Shown piece after piece: positions 194 to 15,386 of a DNA stretch of 20,401 nucleotides; the first letter of the stretch is position 1; the number at the start of each line of letters is the position of its first letter. Made by a program: the position numbers and the translations under genes. Origin of the DNA: a virus; the IMG/VR virus record IMGVR_UViG_3300020183_000567, positions 1 through 20,401 of that record; one strand, 5' to 3'. The notes under the pieces were generated by a model, which was not told the origin of the DNA, made no database searches, and was given only the letters and a program-made list of their open reading frames with translations.

Positions 194-877
194 TTACCCC
201 AGAAGCCCCTGAAGGACTTGGGAAGCGCGGAAGAAGTCCGCAGGATTTTCAACATCGCCCCAATTTACTTGCGACGGAAGAGTAGCGCCAGCAGGCAGAA
301 CAGGCATTGAATTCGATTGCGTCGGGTTCCCAAGAAGCCTCTGCATGAAACTTTCACGAACGCTTATGTCAGCAGGACGAGGCGGCGGCAGCGGAACATT
401 CGCAGGAGGCAAAAAGCCAGCAGCCGGAGCAGCAGCATCCGTTGGAGTTATGTTCATGGGAGGCGGTGCCATTGGAGTGAAACCACCCAGCGGGGCCATA
501 CCCATAACTCCTGGCGGAGGAACCGGCATTGCAGACGGCATCGCAACACCGCGAGGCATCCCAGGCTGCAACATAATGGGCAATGCCGGAGCAACTCCTG
601 TTGGAGCGCGGTTGAGTTGATTATACAGAGCCTGCATATATTCAGGAGAATTGGTTGCAGAAGCAGGCAATGATGGAGCAACTCCCGTTGCAGCCAAACG
701 CCGCTGCGCTTCCAGCATATTACGCATTCCCATATTTCCAAGGGTTCCGTCACGGCTGAACGGCCTATCGTATGGCTGGAACGTCGCGCGACCTCCAAGC
801 GTGAAATCACGATCTACCGCATTCGAAAACGATCTCGGGTTTGTGCGCCCCATAATCTGATCCATCAACGTCGCCAT
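194..877 (-). CDS. Proline/Met/Ala-rich virion-module protein, unknown function
   Basis: A 227-residue low-complexity protein. After an N-terminal region (GRTNPRSFSNAVDRDFTLGG) and a short helix LGNMGMRNMLEAQRRLA, residues about 85-175 are dominated by Pro, Met, Ala and Gly (for example MPVPPPGVMGMAPLGG and MAPPPMNITP). The C-terminus is more ordered (VRESFMQRLLGNPTQ, NPADFFRASQVLQGLLG). Position after the tail-lysozyme gene, and the shared style of its second half, suggest an ejected or tail-interior protein. The ATG overlaps the previous stop as TGATG and AGAGGA lies upstream. No recognised family. Confidence 0.75.
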   Translation of the reverse strand: MATLMDQIMGRTNPRSFSNAVDRDFTLGGRATFQPYDRPFSRDGTLGNMGMRNMLEAQRRLAATGVAPSLPASATNSPEYMQALYNQLNRAPTGVAPALPIMLQPGMPRGVAMPSAMPVPPPGVMGMAPLGGFTPMAPPPMNITPTDAAAPAAGFLPPANVPLPPPRPADISVRESFMQRLLGNPTQSNSMPVLPAGATLPSQVNWGDVENPADFFRASQVLQGLLG

Positions 878-1731
878 CAGAGTAATCCTCTCATCGTCTG
901 GATCGGGCTATATTGCCCGCGTACGAAATTAGGTTGCAGCAACGACATAGGCCGCTGCCGCATGGCATCTTCTCTCATCCCGGCAGCCATCATGGCCTGG
1001 AAAGGAGCAATCGCGCTTTGCTGCTGCCTCAAGGACTCCGCCGCCTGTCGCGCCTGCAAGTCGGCTTGCTCCTGCGGGATCATCTCTGGGGCCGGGATAG
1101 CGCCACCCGTCAGGAAGCTGCCAAATCGTTGCGCCTGCGTCATTACGTCTGGCGCGTAAGCCATTTTAGGGCCGCCAAGATACGGCGCTGGCGTCATAGG
1201 CTCAGGGCTGAGTGGGCTGCCAACCTGCGTCAAATCCGGCGATTGCTGACCAGCAGGAATACTATCCAGAAATTTCCTTCTTGTTTCATGATGATGCGCG
1301 TATTTGGGATCATTAAAACGCCAGCGGATGTAGTTGCGTCCAAGAACTTCTGCGGCCTGTTCCGGGTCGATATTAGGATTGGCCAAGAATTGTTCGCGTG
1401 TGCGTGCATAAGCAGGATTTGTTTCCATTTCCCGTTTAATAAACTGGGCTTGAGCCTGCAAAGTTTCAGGTCCAGGAATAATCTGTCCACCCTCACCGAT
1501 GCGGCCCGCCTGCCTTAGATATTCAAGAGCCTTCGTCCTTCGATCACCCTGAAAACTCATCAAACCAAAATTCGTCGCACGATTGGCCGGGTCAGAGTGT
1601 GTGCCGTAGATGTAGCGAGACTGAAGACCTGTTTCACGGCCCGTTTCAGCCGCAAGAGCGCGAGCCTGCGCGTCAGAGAAACCAGCGCCCCTAAATGCGT
1701 TGTAAATGTCAGTTATGGGGACTCTAGCCAC
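877..1731 (-). CDS. Tail lysozyme-like virion protein
   Basis: A 284-residue protein. Residues 1 to about 140 match the phage tail lysozyme pattern: DIYNAFRGAGFSDAQARALA, AETGRETG with the likely catalytic Glu, SRYIYGTHSDPANRATNFGL and MSFQGDRRTKALEYL. It would open peptidoglycan during DNA entry. The second half is disordered and rich in Pro, Gln, Ala and Met, as in ejected proteins. The start is GTG at 1731, with GGAG eight bases upstream; a GTG at 1752 has no site. It overlaps the end of the PP-loop gene by eight bases and its stop overlaps the next ATG as TGATG. Confidence 0.85.
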   Translation of the reverse strand: MARVPITDIYNAFRGAGFSDAQARALAAETGRETGLQSRYIYGTHSDPANRATNFGLMSFQGDRRTKALEYLRQAGRIGEGGQIIPGPETLQAQAQFIKREMETNPAYARTREQFLANPNIDPEQAAEVLGRNYIRWRFNDPKYAHHHETRRKFLDSIPAGQQSPDLTQVGSPLSPEPMTPAPYLGGPKMAYAPDVMTQAQRFGSFLTGGAIPAPEMIPQEQADLQARQAAESLRQQQSAIAPFQAMMAAGMREDAMRQRPMSLLQPNFVRGQYSPIQTMRGLL

Positions 1732-2413
1732 AAGCGTTGCTCCACTGCTCACGAACAGCTTGGTCTATAATACCAAGTCGCCGCTTAATTTCCAACTTGC
1801 GATCTTCAGGCAGGTTCTCAATTCTGCGCTGATTGTCTGCAAGATAGGCCGTGCAATCCCAGCAATCGCGGCCTGTCTTTTCGCCATCCTCATAGCCCGG
1901 AGCCAACTCCGCTCCCACATCTTTGAGATATGAAAACACTTGCTGCGTTGTCCATTCGTATATTGGCATCAAATAGGTGACGCCATAAACAATCTCTCCA
2001 TCACGCGCGGTAGATTTATGCTCATCCTCCCTGCGCTGGCCCTTGATTGCCTTCGTTGCGCCGCATTCAACAACCGCGCGATGAAGCGGAAACCAAATAT
2101 TCTCAGCGCAGCAATTCAGATATGGCTGCATCAAAGGAAGGTCGTTGCCATAAATCGCACGCCCAAGGCTGGAGTTCCGAACCGGCAAAACATCAACCGG
2201 CCAGCCATTCTGCGCCACATTGCCAGGCTGGTTGGTCTTCACTTCGATAAAACGAGGTAACCGCCGCTTCCATCCTTCCATGTACTCGATCATCTCAGGA
2301 TAAACCGCCCCTGTATTCACCCAGATGACTGGGAGACGATCCCAGACATCGCGGTAAAGATAGAGACAGGCGAGACTGTCCTTTCCTCCTGAGAACAGCA
2401 ACCCCGTATCCAT
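1724..2413 (-). CDS. PP-loop enzyme, phosphoadenosine phosphosulfate reductase family
   Basis: A 229-residue enzyme with the ATP-pyrophosphatase (PP-loop) motif SGGKDS at 8-13, followed by LPVIWVNTGAVYPEM, the KGQRREDEHKS block at 124-134, and PIYEWTTQQVFSYLKDVG at about 150-167, all typical of the PAPS reductase family. Cysteines lie at 101-102 (NCCAEN) and in CWDC (184-187). The ECGLH end of true CysH reductases is absent, so reduction of PAPS is doubtful; family relatives also act in sulfur transfer or nucleotide thiolation. It is coupled to the ejection gene by TAATG and overlaps the start of the tail-lysozyme gene. Why an enzyme of this kind sits inside the virion module is unknown. Confidence 0.85.
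   Translation of the reverse strand: MDTGLLFSGGKDSLACLYLYRDVWDRLPVIWVNTGAVYPEMIEYMEGWKRRLPRFIEVKTNQPGNVAQNGWPVDVLPVRNSSLGRAIYGNDLPLMQPYLNCCAENIWFPLHRAVVECGATKAIKGQRREDEHKSTARDGEIVYGVTYLMPIYEWTTQQVFSYLKDVGAELAPGYEDGEKTGRDCWDCTAYLADNQRRIENLPEDRKLEIKRRLGIIDQAVREQWSNACG
1740..1743 (-). promoter_or_regulatory. Shine-Dalgarno fixing the GTG start of the tail lysozyme gene
   Basis: GGAG eight bases before the GTG at 1731, inside the PP-loop gene. An upstream in-frame GTG at 1752 lacks any such element. Confidence 0.5.
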
Positions 2414-3348
2414 TAAAACGACGCCAAGGCTGCAATTCCTGACGCAAACGTACCAAGGCCACCAAGCCCAGTCAGCAGGTTGCTGCCCTGTGCCCCGCCC
2501 GTTGCTGTCTGTGTCGTTGTTTGCCCATAAGGCGTTGCACCAACGGCAGCCAAACGTAGATTAAGTTGCTGAAGCGGGTAGTCGCGCTGCTCGACAAAGC
2601 GGGCATAGGCATCATCCAAAGCCCGCTGGGCCAGTTGTTGTTGCTGTGCGCCAATCGACTCAATAGCACCAGCATCCGTAAGTCCCATTTGCTGACGCTG
2701 GGCAGCAAGGCTCCCAAGCACACTCGCCCCCTGCAATCCAAGGCCCGCCCCAGCCAGACCGGCTTGCTGGTTCGCAAGAGCAGCCTGCAACTGGCGAGCC
2801 TGATCTGCCTGCATGAGCTGCTGGGCCTGCGTATAGCCCTGAGCGCGCAGTTGGGCCGACAGGTCACCAATACCGCGCGCGCCCTCTGCCGCAGCTACAC
2901 CCTCAGCAATCCCCTGACGCGATCCGCCAAACGCCCTAGCCTGAGACGCCTGCCCCGCAATCTGGTTAAGCTGACGCTGCAAGGCGCTTTCAGCGTTAGC
3001 CGTCGCGCGCTGCTCAACTTCAGATAGATAGGGGTTCATATAAGCGCTAATATCGCCCTGCGGCATCGTCATGGCCGACACCTGCTGGGGCGTATAGAAA
3101 GCACTCTGGGCCGCTGCCCCCATGCCAGCCGTGAGCGCAGGAAGATAGGAGCCGACATTCTGCTGGGCCATCTGGAAGGCTTGTTGCTGCTCAGGCGAAA
3201 AGCCAGCCACAGTTGAGCCTGTATAGGGCTGATATGGCCGCTGGGCCAATTCCCCGGCAATACGAAGATTCTCCTGAGCGGCTTCATTCAGCCACGGTGG
3301 CAGTTCTGTCCTCTGAACGGTCGTTTGCGGGCCTGAACTTTTACCCAT
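2413..3348 (-). CDS. Putative internal virion / DNA ejection protein
   Basis: A 311-residue Gln/Ala/Gly-rich helical protein. The N-terminus has ELPPWLNEAAQENLRIAGEL and PYQPYTGSTVAGFSPEQQQA, a pattern common in podoviral proteins placed just after the tail genes. The middle has long amphipathic Ala/Gln helices (EQRATANAESALQRQLNQIA and more), and the C-terminus is a glycine-rich hydrophobic stretch (LLTGLGGLGTFASGIAALAS) that could enter a membrane. This suits a protein ejected with the DNA. Its ATG overlaps the previous gene by eight bases with GGAGAG upstream. The role is inferred from composition and position. Confidence 0.72.
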   Translation of the reverse strand: MGKSSGPQTTVQRTELPPWLNEAAQENLRIAGELAQRPYQPYTGSTVAGFSPEQQQAFQMAQQNVGSYLPALTAGMGAAAQSAFYTPQQVSAMTMPQGDISAYMNPYLSEVEQRATANAESALQRQLNQIAGQASQARAFGGSRQGIAEGVAAAEGARGIGDLSAQLRAQGYTQAQQLMQADQARQLQAALANQQAGLAGAGLGLQGASVLGSLAAQRQQMGLTDAGAIESIGAQQQQLAQRALDDAYARFVEQRDYPLQQLNLRLAAVGATPYGQTTTQTATGGAQGSNLLTGLGGLGTFASGIAALASF

Positions 3349-3682
3349 CTTTACTCTCCAAGGGCAGTGCGTAGGTCACGCCAACGCGCCTCCATCCATA
3401 ACTAGGCAGAACTTTCTGCCACCCAAATCTCCCTGACATTACCATAAAATCACAACCGTGTTTACGGCCAAATTCAGAGACCCTTGGCTGCATTGCCATG
3501 ACTTCATCCAAGTCGCCAAAAGCCAAAAAAACGTTCAACTCTCTCTTTTTCGGATGTTGGACAATCTGGGTTATGACCGTTGCATTGTCAGACCAGAACG
3601 CCTGCATCCTTCCTTCGTTTAGGGCTGCAATAACGTCAGCCACACTATGCGTATCACCCCCCAACCGGAGAGCCTTTTCCAT
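3341..3682 (-). CDS. GNAT-like phage protein
   Basis: A 113-residue protein whose core resembles the N-acetyltransferase fold seen in small proteins of T7-like and other podoviral genomes. Visible elements are AALNEGRMQAFWSDNATVIT, a strand pair KRELNVFLAFGDLDEVM, a helix QPRVSEFGRKHGCDFMVMSG and a final WQKVLPSYGWRRVGVTYALP. A classical acetyl-CoA Gln/Arg-x-x-Gly-x-Gly loop is not obvious, so activity is uncertain. The start at 3682 lies one base after the previous stop; a TTG at 3712 would add ten residues and cannot be excluded. No strong Shine-Dalgarno precedes either. It overlaps the next gene by eight bases. Confidence 0.65.
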   Translation of the reverse strand: MEKALRLGGDTHSVADVIAALNEGRMQAFWSDNATVITQIVQHPKKRELNVFLAFGDLDEVMAMQPRVSEFGRKHGCDFMVMSGRFGWQKVLPSYGWRRVGVTYALPLESKDG

Positions 3683-3683
3683 C

Positions 3684-3914
3684 TTAGTAAGGAGGCGAGC
3701 CTGTTTGTCCAAGGGGCACCGATGTCGTTACGAGGTTCCCCAAATTATCTACCGTAACCTTCCAAACACCACCATCGGGCGCTTGCAGAAGGATGCTATC
3801 AACAGCTTCAATCCGGTTAACAGTAAAACTAAACGCCTGCTCAATAGCAGAAAAGGCGCGGTTAAAGAAGCCTGGGTCATAGCCCGGAGGCGGGTTTGAG
3901 ACTTGTATCCTCAT
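3684..3914 (-). CDS. Small phage protein, 76 aa
   Basis: A 76-residue protein. The N-terminal half is helical with NRAFSAIEQAFSFTVNRIEA; the second half is a beta hairpin of the type LLQAPDGGVWKVTVDNLGNL followed by Val-Thr-Thr. Such small proteins often follow nozzle genes in podoviral genomes; I know no assigned function. The ATG overlaps the nozzle stop as ATGA and has AAAGG about six bases upstream. The gene ends one base before the next ATG. Confidence 0.75.
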   Translation of the reverse strand: MRIQVSNPPPGYDPGFFNRAFSAIEQAFSFTVNRIEAVDSILLQAPDGGVWKVTVDNLGNLVTTSVPLGQTGSPPY

Positions 3915-5866
3915 CTGCCGCCTTTCGCTGTGAAGTCAATCCGCATCTCGCCAATGCTCCACGGAGCATCTTCTGTGGATTCAACCTTGATCCTAAAGTC
4001 GCGCCCAGTGACTCGCATATCAGTGTAGCCGTCAGAACGTGGATGATAAGGACCGGATTCGGTTTCAGCGCCCTCTGGGGTGAAGGACGAAAATACCTGC
4101 AACTGAGTGCTGTCGTAACCATATCCGCTGTCTGTTATAGCCTGGCGTAAGAATGATATCTTTCCACCATTCTGGATATTTAGAGAGCTTGTCTCAGCAT
4201 ATCTGTCGGTCTCGATAGGAACACCAGCAGCCGTCCATCCTGACTCTTGGAAAAAGAGATCATTGTTGCTGTCCGCAGCAAGAGGAAACTTGTAAACGCC
4301 AGCGCCATAAGCCGCCGTCCGGTCCATTTCTCCAATAGACCACCAACCCTCAGAATAATTGTAAACGACATAACGATCTGGTGTGGTTGAGCCTACAGAT
4401 GGATACCAGAACCATGCTTCTGGAAACACGTTGTTCTCAGAGCCATGCGTATAAAGCGGCCCGTAATCTTGATCTATGTTCTCAAATACGAAAGCGCCAA
4501 CATCACAAGACAGCGTCTTCACAACACCACCATCGTAAACCCAGAAACTTTCCTCGCCCATCCAGATGCAGCGCCCAGCGTATGTCGCAAAGGATTTGGG
4601 AGCCATAAGTCCACACCCGAATCCAATTCGCTCAATGCTGTAAATGTAAGGAAGACCGATGTAGCGCATGAGCCACGCTTCATCCTTCGTCCAGATCAGG
4701 GTTCCTTCTCGAACCGGAGCGCACATAACAAGTTGGCTTGATGTGTCGATGTCCAGATAACCAGCCGTATTGGTCGTAGATGCAAAGTTCCAGTCGGAGT
4801 AATCTTCACGAGAAGACCACGCAACGCGCCGGTTGTTTCCGCCAGATCCGATAAGAACGGCATGACGCTCAGGGGTCACAATGACAGCCCTGTTGTTGGT
4901 TGGGACTGCTGGGGATATTACGGCCTGACCGCCTGTTCCTGTTGTGTTAGACCCTGAGTCATTTACAGTAAATGTATCAAGAGTCGGAACCGTTGCTATG
5001 GTAAATGTATCATTAAAGGTACCTTCTGTGTTTCCAGTAATAATAACAGTGTCTCCAATCCCAAAGCCGTGGTAATTGTTCATGGTAAATGTAATCACGT
5101 TGGACACACGAGACGCAGATGCTATGCCCTCAATGCCAGCAACATCAGCTTCTGTTTCTCCGTTTTGGAAATGAAGCAGGCGTCCATCGCTTGACGCCAC
5201 AGCAAGAACATCCCCACCCCAGTTATCAAAGGTCCACGAAAAAGACGGGATAAAGGCTGAAGAGGCGGGCCGAATATCATCAGGGTCAAGAGAAGCCGTG
5301 CCTCCAGACGAAGATGCGTTAGCGGCAGTCTGTGAATAAGTAAATGTCGTACTACCAGTTATGGTTATTGAAAATGTGCCATTAAAGCTGGAGTTAGTAA
5401 CCCCGGCAATAACAACATACGTTCCAGTCTGAAACTGATGATTAGTTGAAGTTGTTATCGTAACTGTATTTGATGACCTTACAGCGGTGGAGATCGTATA
5501 AATAGGATCATCAAGGCCGTAATACAAATCGCCATAATCACTCGCGCCATAGGCTCCGGTTAGGCCAACAGTTTCGCCCGTGAACCCGCTTGGGGTAATG
5601 TTTGTATAGGTCGCCCCGTCAAGAACATAAAGACCGGAGCTTAACCCCAACAAGGCAAGCTGTATGTTGTCATTTGTTGACCATGCAAAAATGCCCCTGA
5701 CGGCAGAGGGCAGCGGGGTTTCTGTAATGCGCTCCCATCCGCCAACCGGCATCAGCTCCCCAGATCGCCAGCGTATCAAGTTGGCGTCATACCAGCGCCC
5801 TTTGACCTGCAATGGGGTTGCGGCCCTAACAACACCAGGAGGAATATTTAGAGGAGCAAGAGGCAT
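3911..5866 (-). CDS. Tail nozzle-like structural protein
   Basis: A 651-residue beta-rich protein. The opening MPLAPLNIPPGVVRAATPLQ, with KGRWYDANLIRWRSGELMPVGG, is typical of large podoviral tail proteins thought to form the nozzle below the adaptor; propeller-like blocks follow (GIFAWSTNDNIQLALLGLSS, WTFDNWGGDVLAVASSDGRL, ERHAVLIGSGGNNRRVAWSS). Two similar beta domains are inserted at about residues 155-200 and 255-315, each with the pattern VTIT or ITFT, a glycine-rich turn, then F-N-T-F-I. The start at 5866 is chosen over an ATG 11 codons upstream because it overlaps the previous stop as TAATG and has GGGAAG seven bases before it. It precedes the ejection genes, as expected. Confidence 0.82.
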   Translation of the reverse strand: MPLAPLNIPPGVVRAATPLQVKGRWYDANLIRWRSGELMPVGGWERITETPLPSAVRGIFAWSTNDNIQLALLGLSSGLYVLDGATYTNITPSGFTGETVGLTGAYGASDYGDLYYGLDDPIYTISTAVRSSNTVTITTSTNHQFQTGTYVVIAGVTNSSFNGTFSITITGSTTFTYSQTAANASSSGGTASLDPDDIRPASSAFIPSFSWTFDNWGGDVLAVASSDGRLLHFQNGETEADVAGIEGIASASRVSNVITFTMNNYHGFGIGDTVIITGNTEGTFNDTFTIATVPTLDTFTVNDSGSNTTGTGGQAVISPAVPTNNRAVIVTPERHAVLIGSGGNNRRVAWSSREDYSDWNFASTTNTAGYLDIDTSSQLVMCAPVREGTLIWTKDEAWLMRYIGLPYIYSIERIGFGCGLMAPKSFATYAGRCIWMGEESFWVYDGGVVKTLSCDVGAFVFENIDQDYGPLYTHGSENNVFPEAWFWYPSVGSTTPDRYVVYNYSEGWWSIGEMDRTAAYGAGVYKFPLAADSNNDLFFQESGWTAAGVPIETDRYAETSSLNIQNGGKISFLRQAITDSGYGYDSTQLQVFSSFTPEGAETESGPYHPRSDGYTDMRVTGRDFRIKVESTEDAPWSIGEMRIDFTAKGGR

Positions 5867-6078
5867 TAGTTCTTCCCAAACAGTTGTGTAATACCCCAAG
5901 TCAGGCCCGAGCCAAGAAAGGCTGCAATTCCCATCATAACACGACCGCCGCCCTTAATTGAAGAAAACTCATCGCGCATCTCTCTTACGTCTGTTTTGAG
6001 TTCTTTCATTTCTCGGTTAAGCACCTCGATCTGAGTGATGAGCGACCCGATCTCACGCTCTAAGCTGTTTTCAGCCAT
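5866..6078 (-). CDS. Small coiled-coil membrane protein (XhlA-like)
   Basis: A 70-residue protein with an N-terminal coiled coil (IGSLITQIEVLNREMKELKT, heptad spacing of Ile and Leu) and one C-terminal membrane segment (VMMGIAAFLGSGLTWGITQL) ending in a Lys-Asn tail. This layout resembles the XhlA family of lysis-associated proteins, and the gene closes the lysis cassette. A holin partner or antiholin role is inference. The start at 6078 is chosen because it overlaps the o-spanin stop as TGATG; the frame is open nine codons further up. Its stop overlaps the nozzle gene as TAATG. Confidence 0.75.
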   Translation of the reverse strand: MAENSLEREIGSLITQIEVLNREMKELKTDVREMRDEFSSIKGGGRVMMGIAAFLGSGLTWGITQLFGKN

Positions 6079-14061: not shown

Positions 14062-14174
14062 TAGCCCTCCTTGATAAACCGGAAAGAATGAGACAGCTCA
14101 TCCTCACCAAATCGGTGGGCTTGGAAAAAGTAAATCTCATTCTGAAGCATCAGGTCGAGCACAGCGAGGTTCAT
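14061..14174 (-). CDS. Short ORF, 37 aa
   Basis: A 37-residue frame, MNLAVLDLMLQNEIYFFQAH through to FRFIKEG. It is coupled on both sides: its ATG overlaps the methyltransferase stop as ATGA, and its stop overlaps the next start as TAATG. The next gene's ribosome binding site, AAGGAGG, is built into its last codons. No family is recognised. The double coupling and exact filling of the space favour a real small gene; it may have followed the portal directly before the methyltransferase arrived. Confidence 0.6.
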   Translation of the reverse strand: MNLAVLDLMLQNEIYFFQAHRFGEDELSHSFRFIKEG

Positions 14175-15386
14175 GACGCGCACCTCGCTCGCTTGGAGGC
14201 CAACGCCTCGGCGATGACGTCTGCGACAGCCTTCGCCAAGAGCGGCGGGACCGCATTCCCCACCTGCGCTCTTTGATCGAGGAACGCATCGTCCACCAGA
14301 CCTTTTCTGAGCGAAAGGGAGCGGCTAAGAACTGCTCGCTTGCCCCTGAATACGAATCGGTCTGGGAAGGACTGAATGCGAGCCAGCTCCCTCACGGTAA
14401 AGTTCCTGTGCAGGTATGGATGGATAAAGTTGGTGTGCGATGATGCCGGAATCGTGTTGCAGGGATAGTCTGGGTGTTGCCTTCGACTATTCTGGCCATA
14501 GCGCTTGCCTGACAACTCTTCGGGGTCGCCCCGCCTTCGGGGGGATAGTTCGTCGGGAACGTCTGCTTCCGATTCGCCGCACGTGATGCGCGCAAAGCGA
14601 TTGACAAGACGCGCGGTGTGCCTCATCGGCTCGTGGTTCAAGATCTCGACGGCACCGGCACGCATCAACGCCTGATAATCATTGGCCGCCTGGTATTCAT
14701 ATTTCAGGACGGATGGGACCGAGTCGTGAACGATCTGCGGCAGGTCAGATATGGCTTGCCATAGGGTCACGTGGGGGACGGGCGAGCGCTCAAAAAGCGA
14801 CAGGTTCGCCGAGGTGCTCTTGCCATGCGTACGCGCAGGAAGGCAGTCTCTTTTTTCGATGTCATGCCGAAGCCCTACGATGAACAGCCTGTCGCGATGC
14901 TGCGGAACGCCGTAGTCAGCCGCGTCCAAGAGAAAACTCTGCGCTTCATAGCCAACAGCAGAGAGACTCTCCATAATGATCGAGAGAACCTGTTGTCCCG
15001 ATTCATTGGTCGCGGTGCACAGGCCCTTTACGTTTTCAATCACGCACGCTTCGGGGCGGAGTACACCGAGAAAGCGGATGTAGTCCTGGAACAAGGTGTT
15101 CCGCGGGTCCCTCGGGTCCCGCGAAGCTGTGTTGCTGTGTGAGAAGCCCTGACAGGGTGGACCACCTACGATGACAGTCGACAAACCCCACTCTCTTGCG
15201 GATCTCGCTGTCCCGGATGTTCCGGATATCACAGACGTCAACGCGCACATCGGGCATGTTTGCCGCGAAGGTCTCGGCGGCCCACTTGTCATGCTCAAGC
15301 GCATAGCCCGTCGCGAAGCCAGCCATTTCAAAGCCCAGACTCAGCCCGCCCGCGCCGGCGAATAGGTCAACAACCTTCATCTTCAT
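14171..15386 (-). CDS. DNA (cytosine-5) methyltransferase, interrupted by a one-base frameshift
   Basis: An orphan C5 cytosine methyltransferase; no restriction endonuclease gene is adjacent. The first frame (15386 to about 15177) gives motif I, VVDLFAGAGGLSLGFEMAGF. The second frame (about 15175 to 14171) gives catalytic motif IV VIVGGPPCQGFSHSN, motif VI IENVKGL, motif VIII GVPQHRDRLFIVGLR, a variable target-recognition region, motif IX RELARIQSFPDRF and motif X QVGNAVPPLLAKAVADV. Removing one base (the A at + strand 15176) joins them as GFVDVIVGGPPCQ, about 404 residues, a normal length. Removing one C of the run at 15186-15189 also restores the frame but gives a less typical junction. As written the protein stops after the motif I half, so it is a pseudogene, an assembly error or a frameshift-expressed gene. 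Its role would be protection of phage DNA from host restriction. The region looks richer in G and C than its neighbours, suggesting later acquisition. Confidence 0.85.

Follow-up and report, generated by a model that had tools for sequence, protein, structure and literature searches.

A conserved PP-loop enzyme gene behind a phage DNA ejection gene and its alternation with the Peptidase_S74 domain

Gene order around the PP-loop gene

The window, i.e. the whole 20,401-base stretch of viral DNA analysed here (an IMG/VR virus record), carries its main genes on the minus strand. First come the genes for terminase and portal, then a C5 methyltransferase gene and those for capsid, tail and lysis; the terminase, portal and capsid identities were assigned by reading the translations of the window's open reading frames. 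These are followed by the gene of a virion structural protein (3911..5899, minus strand; PHROG 3287, 2.3e-86). Downstream of the latter lies a cassette with, in this order, a GNAT-fold protein of 123 aa (3341..3712, minus strand), a DNA ejection protein of 311 aa with a hydrophobic C-terminal tail (EJ; 2413..3348, minus strand; PHROG 4287, 5.3e-32), a PP-loop/PAPS_reduct-family enzyme (PP), a phage tail lysozyme (Phage_lysozyme2; 877..1752, minus strand; PF18013, 5.3e-9) and a 227-aa protein (194..877, minus strand). A megablast search of the entire window against named phages returned no match. The GNAT-fold protein was assigned by PHROG 22172 and by its model (pLDDT 88.9), for which the best Foldseek match is the GNAT 2oh1 (E 2.4e-4), and its relatives are present in most such cassettes, with or without PP. 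The 227-aa protein, found in close relatives by synteny, gave no family match in Pfam or PHROG profile searches. The EJ protein of the window is cysteine-free. All 22 aligned EJ proteins start with Met-Gly or Met-Ser-Gly, whether they are accompanied by PP or not.

PP (229 aa, ATG start) occupies 1724..2413 on the minus strand, and the plus-strand frame across the same positions holds stops. In line with the earlier note, which had described a PAPS reductase family gene at this place, PP matches Pfam PF01507 PAPS_reduct (E 3.8e-16, 60 bits at a cut-off of 22.5) and PHROG 424 (6.7e-21), and the profile matches of EJ and of the lysozyme likewise bear out the ejection protein upstream and the overlapping tail lysozyme gene downstream. 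The TAA stop of EJ and the ATG of PP have one base in common (TAATG). At its other end, by reading of the sequence, PP overlaps the lysozyme gene by 29 bp when the first GTG of the lysozyme is taken as start, or by 8 bp when the in-frame GTG at 1731 is used. PP thus overlaps both neighbours, and between positions 800 and 3800 we found two promoter-like sites (1.8 in shuffled sequences) and two terminator-like sites (3.4 in shuffled sequences). The overlap with EJ that had been read as translational coupling is real, whereas the coupling itself and the late expression follow from gene order and overlap, by which PP would be made late and in translational coupling with EJ.

Elsewhere in the window, the C5 cytosine methyltransferase (15386..14171, minus strand) is spread across two frames, with DLFAGAGG in the reading frame 15386..15036 and GGPPCQGFS in 15331..14171; this split may be an assembly error, decay or a programmed frameshift.

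Conserved residues and fold of PP

A search with a peptide pattern matched 107 IMG/VR stretches, of which 105 encode a relative of PP. The best 80 of these 105, and the best 80 of at least 320, were used as relatives. The alignment examined for conserved residues comprises 71 distinct sequences from 84 proteins among the matches listed, the window's included. Hereby, the first-loop motif SGGxDS of the PP-loop ATP pyrophosphatase superfamily is present as SGGKDS at residues 8-13 (2375..2392, minus strand); among these matches G9, G10, D12 and S13 are invariant (71/71), S8 is kept in 70/71 and K11 in 66/71. Four cysteines are invariant in the same 71 sequences, namely C101 and C102, which form a Cys-Cys pair (2108..2113, minus strand), and C184 and C187 of the CWDC motif at residues 184-187 (1853..1864, minus strand). 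Both pairs are predicted Fe-S ligands on the basis of conservation and of an alignment with CysH. PP is moreover under purifying selection, with dN/dS values of 0.08, 0.08 and 0.11 for the window's protein against three relatives (L005, L006 and L013, respectively; L numbers denote loci), and a median of 0.14 and a maximum of 0.90 across 232 pairs with dS between 0.1 and 1.5 among the matches listed. The invariant G-G-x-D-S, CC and CxxC together with dN/dS values of about 0.1 point to a working enzyme. Distant relatives (about 25-33% identity) are numerous in archaeal genomes (L146-L213).

An AlphaFold model of PP built with 31 sequences reached a pLDDT of 90.0 and a pTM of 0.86, with a pLDDT of only 67 for residues 181-190. 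Foldseek matched this model to 2o8v (1.6e-8), 1sur (2.3e-8) and the APS reductase 2goy (1.4e-7). In VIA comparisons the highest Z score was obtained for 7rge (15.1; rmsd 3.1, 162 aligned), followed by 2o8v (13.9; 2.9, 170) and 7lhr (13.6; 2.8, 166); CysD (1zun, 13.9) and FAD synthase (8ron, 13.7) are level with most CysH entries, and LarE (12.1) and NcsA (11.3) score below them. Judged by the model, PP comes nearest in fold to CysH and its relatives, and the best viral predicted-structure match is a 'CysH' of an uncultured phage with 50% identity.

Despite this fold, PP scores far under the curated NCBIfam cut-offs, with 40.5 bits against 154 for phosphoadenylyl-sulfate reductase, 26.6 against 235.3 for APS reductase and 28.7 against 165.1 for a further model. 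For a direct comparison, six genomes holding PP relatives were searched for CysH, which gave three proteins over the cut-off (two from Caballeronia, one from Limnohabitans). The CC and CxxC of these three chromosomal, APS-type CysH proteins align with both cysteine pairs of PP. In APS-type CysH the CC and CxxC are the ligands of a [4Fe-4S] cluster. The earlier note had presented CC and CWDC as something that PP has in place of CysH features; the alignment contradicts this, and fold and cysteine columns are common to both. The difference lies elsewhere: ECGLH is present in the three chromosomal CysH proteins and absent from the eight PP proteins aligned with them, as the earlier note had observed for the window, whereas SGGKDS of PP is replaced by other letters in the three CysH proteins. 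A sub-threshold protein from Comamonas has ECGLH and no CC pair.

The window's PP does end in 'NACG', with a cysteine at position 228. We rejected it as a catalytic residue, since it is unconserved and none of the 71 distinct relatives among the matches listed shows a conserved C-terminal cysteine. The structural comparison named in the earlier note as a possible refutation thus gave a divided answer, in that the closest fold is CysH and its relatives and the catalytic residue is missing. As the catalytic C-terminal cysteine is missing, PP does not appear to be a sulfate reductase, and an ordinary CysH was set aside by the missing ECGLH and the scores below cut-off. PP is hence unlikely to be an ordinary sulfate-reduction gene; the gene is real and conserved, and its annotation under sulfate metabolism is probably wrong.

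Position behind EJ and alternation with Peptidase_S74

To describe the gene neighbourhood we used 137 PP loci among the matches listed, i.e. 3 phage records, 121 viral contigs and 13 bacterial contigs, leaving aside 67 archaeal-type loci (L146-L213 without L157) and refetched contigs. Directly upstream of PP, 100 of these loci have a gene matching the EJ profile and 30 another open reading frame; no gene was found in 3 and the sequence was too short in 4. Depending on the start codon chosen, the stop and start codons of EJ and PP overlap in 86 of the 100 (64 TAATG-type and 22 ATGA-type, among the matches listed). Reading by eye the 33 listed loci with another open reading frame or no gene found identified 28 with an EJ-like upstream protein, recognised by its Gly/Ala-rich hydrophobic C-terminus, and left the upstream gene unclassified in five (L134, L136, L143, L144 and L145). 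Among six divergent upstream proteins that were compared with PHROG profiles, five match PHROG families named 'virion structural protein', either PHROG 8003 (L003, L142) or PHROG 6121 (L076, L083, L128); the sixth (L140) had no PHROG match. The place among ejection cassette genes proposed in the earlier note is thus real and conserved in relatives. In this sample, which is the subfamily nearest the window, such a steady EJ-like neighbour is not what one would expect of a free-floating metabolic gene.

The same arrangement is found in Bcep22-like phages, whose PAPS reductase (BcepIL02 gp67, JC1 gp65, CSP3 orf41; PHROG 424) is a homolog of PP, with 35.5% identity for BcepIL02, the same motifs and the same order of GNAT, virion protein and PP. 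Two differences exist: the upstream protein belongs to PHROG 8003 in these phages and to PHROG 4287 in the window, and in BcepIL02 the upstream gene and PP are 13 bp apart, whereas they overlap in the window.

A SAM methyltransferase (Methyltransf_11) is adjacent or fused to PP in 6 of the 137 loci among the matches listed. It sits directly upstream of PP, between the EJ-like gene and PP, in L077 (5339-6001), L123 (5360-6001) and L129 (3711-4388), is fused to PP in L136 (5341-6684) and lies downstream in L145 and L157. That this family holds such fusions is suggested by the PHROG 424 profile, whose positions 7-96 match the methyltransferase alone.

Not every EJ gene is followed by PP. From 217 usable loci among the matches listed, after 44 had been dropped (38 for having less than 900 bp downstream and 6 because their EJ match was short), we obtained 135 dereplicated EJ cores, of which 54 have PP behind them, 51 end in a C-terminal Peptidase_S74 (S74) domain, 30 have neither and none has both. 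S74 was called in 49 cases with a profile made from 4 sequences and in 51 after iteration. These class frequencies are biased, because 53 of the 54 PP cases came from PP queries and 38 of the 51 S74 cases from an S74-holding query; a locus with both PP and S74 could be recovered through either route. With 81 of the 135 listed EJ lacking PP, we rejected the possibility that PP is a core assembly factor required by every EJ. In eight named phages with GNAT or EJ relatives (phiM5, MW202496, OH, MJing1, MW202879, DB2, C72C1 with a GNAT match only, and RW with an EJ match only), PP is absent from the stretch fetched, and phiM5, MW202496, OH and DB2, as well as the IMG/VR contig L214, carry an EJ relative with a Peptidase_S74 domain.

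On the EJ tree, which is a quick one under a simple model and carries a long-branch warning, PP presence changes 10 times among the matches listed, 7 of these changes being forced by supported branches, and the number is still 10 without 12 long entries. Independent pairs for PP versus S74 numbered 7 among the matches listed, with about 5 opposite, 2 without difference and 0 in the same direction (sign test, median p 0.0625). By this measure the exclusion of PP and S74 is suggestive and not significant.

The exchange can be seen directly in individual pairs. In the closest pair, L216 (with PP) and L302 (with S74; on the contig of L214) share 91.3% identity across the 4.17 kb that lead up to EJ codon 287; the divergence beyond it takes in PP or S74 and extends over the first two thirds of the lysozyme gene. 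Between L012 (with PP) and L302 the swap is clean: about 760 bp containing PP stand in one, about 307 bp containing S74 in the other, and the flanks are homologous up to nearly EJ codon 287 and again from the lysozyme start. EJ of PP-bearing phages accordingly ends roughly where the S74 domain starts in S74-bearing EJ. The two differ in kind: the S74 intramolecular chaperone, which takes the same site behind the EJ core in relatives lacking PP, is a C-terminal domain of EJ from an unrelated family, whereas PP is a separate enzyme. Autocleavage by S74 occurs before a conserved Ser. Ejection-type proteins with C-terminal Peptidase_S74 occur in L214/L302, L085, L086, L087 and L090, and most show a conserved Ser behind the hydrophobic tail.

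The last residue of EJ was also considered. All 54 PP-bearing cases end in L, F or M, and 7 of the 30 with neither PP nor S74 end in one of FLIMVYW (Fisher 8e-15 with phylogeny ignored, among the matches listed). By phylogeny this link comprises only 3 independent pairs among the matches listed and is not significant, for which reason it was set aside as a signature of PP. The 28 divergent loci were not counted here because the tail had helped to call their upstream gene EJ-like. As T is the middle base of the codons for F, L, M, I and V alike, an effect on the translation start at the overlapping ATG is possible.

Candidate roles of PP

We tentatively favour the view that PP is a modification enzyme of the ATP-pyrophosphatase/Fe-S type, dedicated to the ejection module, and not a sulfate reductase, which would most likely modify EJ or an associate of EJ. 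Judging from its motifs, PP, with its PAPS-reductase/adenylyltransferase fold, probably adenylates a substrate by means of the SGGKDS loop, and the predicted [4Fe-4S] cluster bound by CC and CxxC would serve the transfer of sulfur or a related group. The substrate is the least certain part of this proposal, and EJ, perhaps with its hydrophobic C-terminal tail, is the boldest candidate; something handled together with EJ during assembly could be modified instead. Cap9/QatC provide a precedent for protein conjugation by PP-loop enzymes, which makes EJ chemically possible as substrate. Cap9, QueC, NcsA and LarE are of the same fold class and score below CysH (Cap9 and QueC as weak profile matches, E 0.033 and 0.051), and their cysteine arrangement is unlike that of PP. 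A more specific version, in which PP is a maturase that acts on EJ by adenylation and modification of either its hydrophobic C-terminal tail or its N-terminal Gly, in place of the self-cleaving S74 chaperone of sister phages, and in which a SAM methyltransferase completes the reaction in some lineages, is unlikely; if true, it would add a post-translational modification step to the building of the DNA-ejection machine.

About equally likely as a role dedicated to the ejection module is that the slot behind EJ is a permissive recombination site in a strongly expressed operon, with PP as one of several alleles acting on a host substrate (tRNA, nucleotide or small molecule) unrelated to ejection. 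The many EJ genes without PP, the named phages with GNAT and EJ relatives and no PP in the stretch fetched, the L216/L302 swap that also takes two thirds of the lysozyme gene, and the weak profile matches to QueC and BrxP all agree with such a slot, and the exclusion of PP and S74 may just reflect two alleles of it. In the accessible parts of their papers, moreover, the authors on JC1 and CSP3 call the PP homolog a moron or sulfate-assimilation gene, and those on CSP3 cite phage 186 for non-essentiality. Against this reading, the subfamily keeps an EJ-like neighbour even when the PHROG of that neighbour differs, the gene overlap is maintained, and promoter- and terminator-like sites are not above shuffled sequences.

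It is quite improbable that PP sulfurates phage DNA just before packaging (phosphorothioate or thio-base, cf. SspD/DndC) and thereby helps it to escape restriction. Late timing and the C5 methyltransferase gene of the window would fit, BcepIL02 gp67 matches the PADLOC SspD model (1.1e-12), and PP-loop and Fe-S, as predicted for PP, are combined in SspD, DndC and BrxP, for DndC according to the accessible part of the source (PMC10853773). The window's PP, on the other hand, matches neither the SspD nor the DndC model of PADLOC at E 0.01, where only QueC (2.5e-4) and BrxP (0.0015) are found. The cysteine desulfurase that would partner an SspD/DndC enzyme (PF00266) was found in 0 of 18 PP-bearing records, which may be fragments, as against 14 of 14 controls; host IscS could take its place. 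DndE (PF08870) was found in 0 of the 18 records and likewise in 0 of 14 controls.

Highly doubtful is a virion cargo enzyme that is ejected with the DNA and acts on the host at once. Its neighbours are ejection-type and virion proteins, and in BcepIL02 and JC1 the cluster also encodes a virion-associated DarB-like protein. However, in the available portion of the JC1 paper, the mass spectrometry of CsCl-purified particles (ghost band) lists gp64, encoded just upstream of the PP homolog (9 unique peptides), and gp67, gp68 and gp69, encoded downstream, and not the PP homolog gp65 (PMC9144972). The acetyltransferase gp63, counterpart of the GNAT protein, is also missing from that list (PMC9144972). 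Likewise, the BcepIL02 record labels gp66 and gp68 as virion-associated and leaves gp67, the PP homolog, without such a label. As far as the JC1 list goes, a place among virion genes does not imply packaging. The virion-carried protein considered in the earlier note is not supported by these data on relatives, and PP itself would not be packaged in quantity.

Very improbable, finally, is an auxiliary CysH aiding host sulfate assimilation, to which the CysH fold of the model and the published annotation in Bcep22-like phages point, and against which stand the absent ECGLH and conserved C-terminal cysteine, SGGKDS in place of other letters, the scores far under the cut-offs and the tie to a virion gene.

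The position behind an ejection-type gene in nearly all relatives examined and the exchange with the S74 chaperone domain suggest that PP serves the building or use of the virus particle and not host metabolism. It is common to interpret phage 'PAPS reductase' genes as auxiliary metabolic or moron genes of sulfate assimilation, and the literature on Bcep22-like phages describes this one as a moron or PAPS reductase. Since the catalytic cysteine is missing and the gene is tied to an ejection-type gene, its assignment to sulfur metabolism is probably mistaken in a sizeable group of metagenomic podovirus-like phages. Within open-licence PMC we found no literature linking PAPS-like genes to ejection proteins or S74, and no prior description of the EJ link and the S74 alternation. 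A paper on Thermus phages states that such proteins deserve investigation (PMC11437467), and the recurrent one-for-one alternation with the S74 chaperone domain offers a testable lead to their function. Against a role dedicated to the ejection module, other phage PAPS-like genes, such as those of vB_EliS-R6L and Tsatsa, are located elsewhere in the genome.
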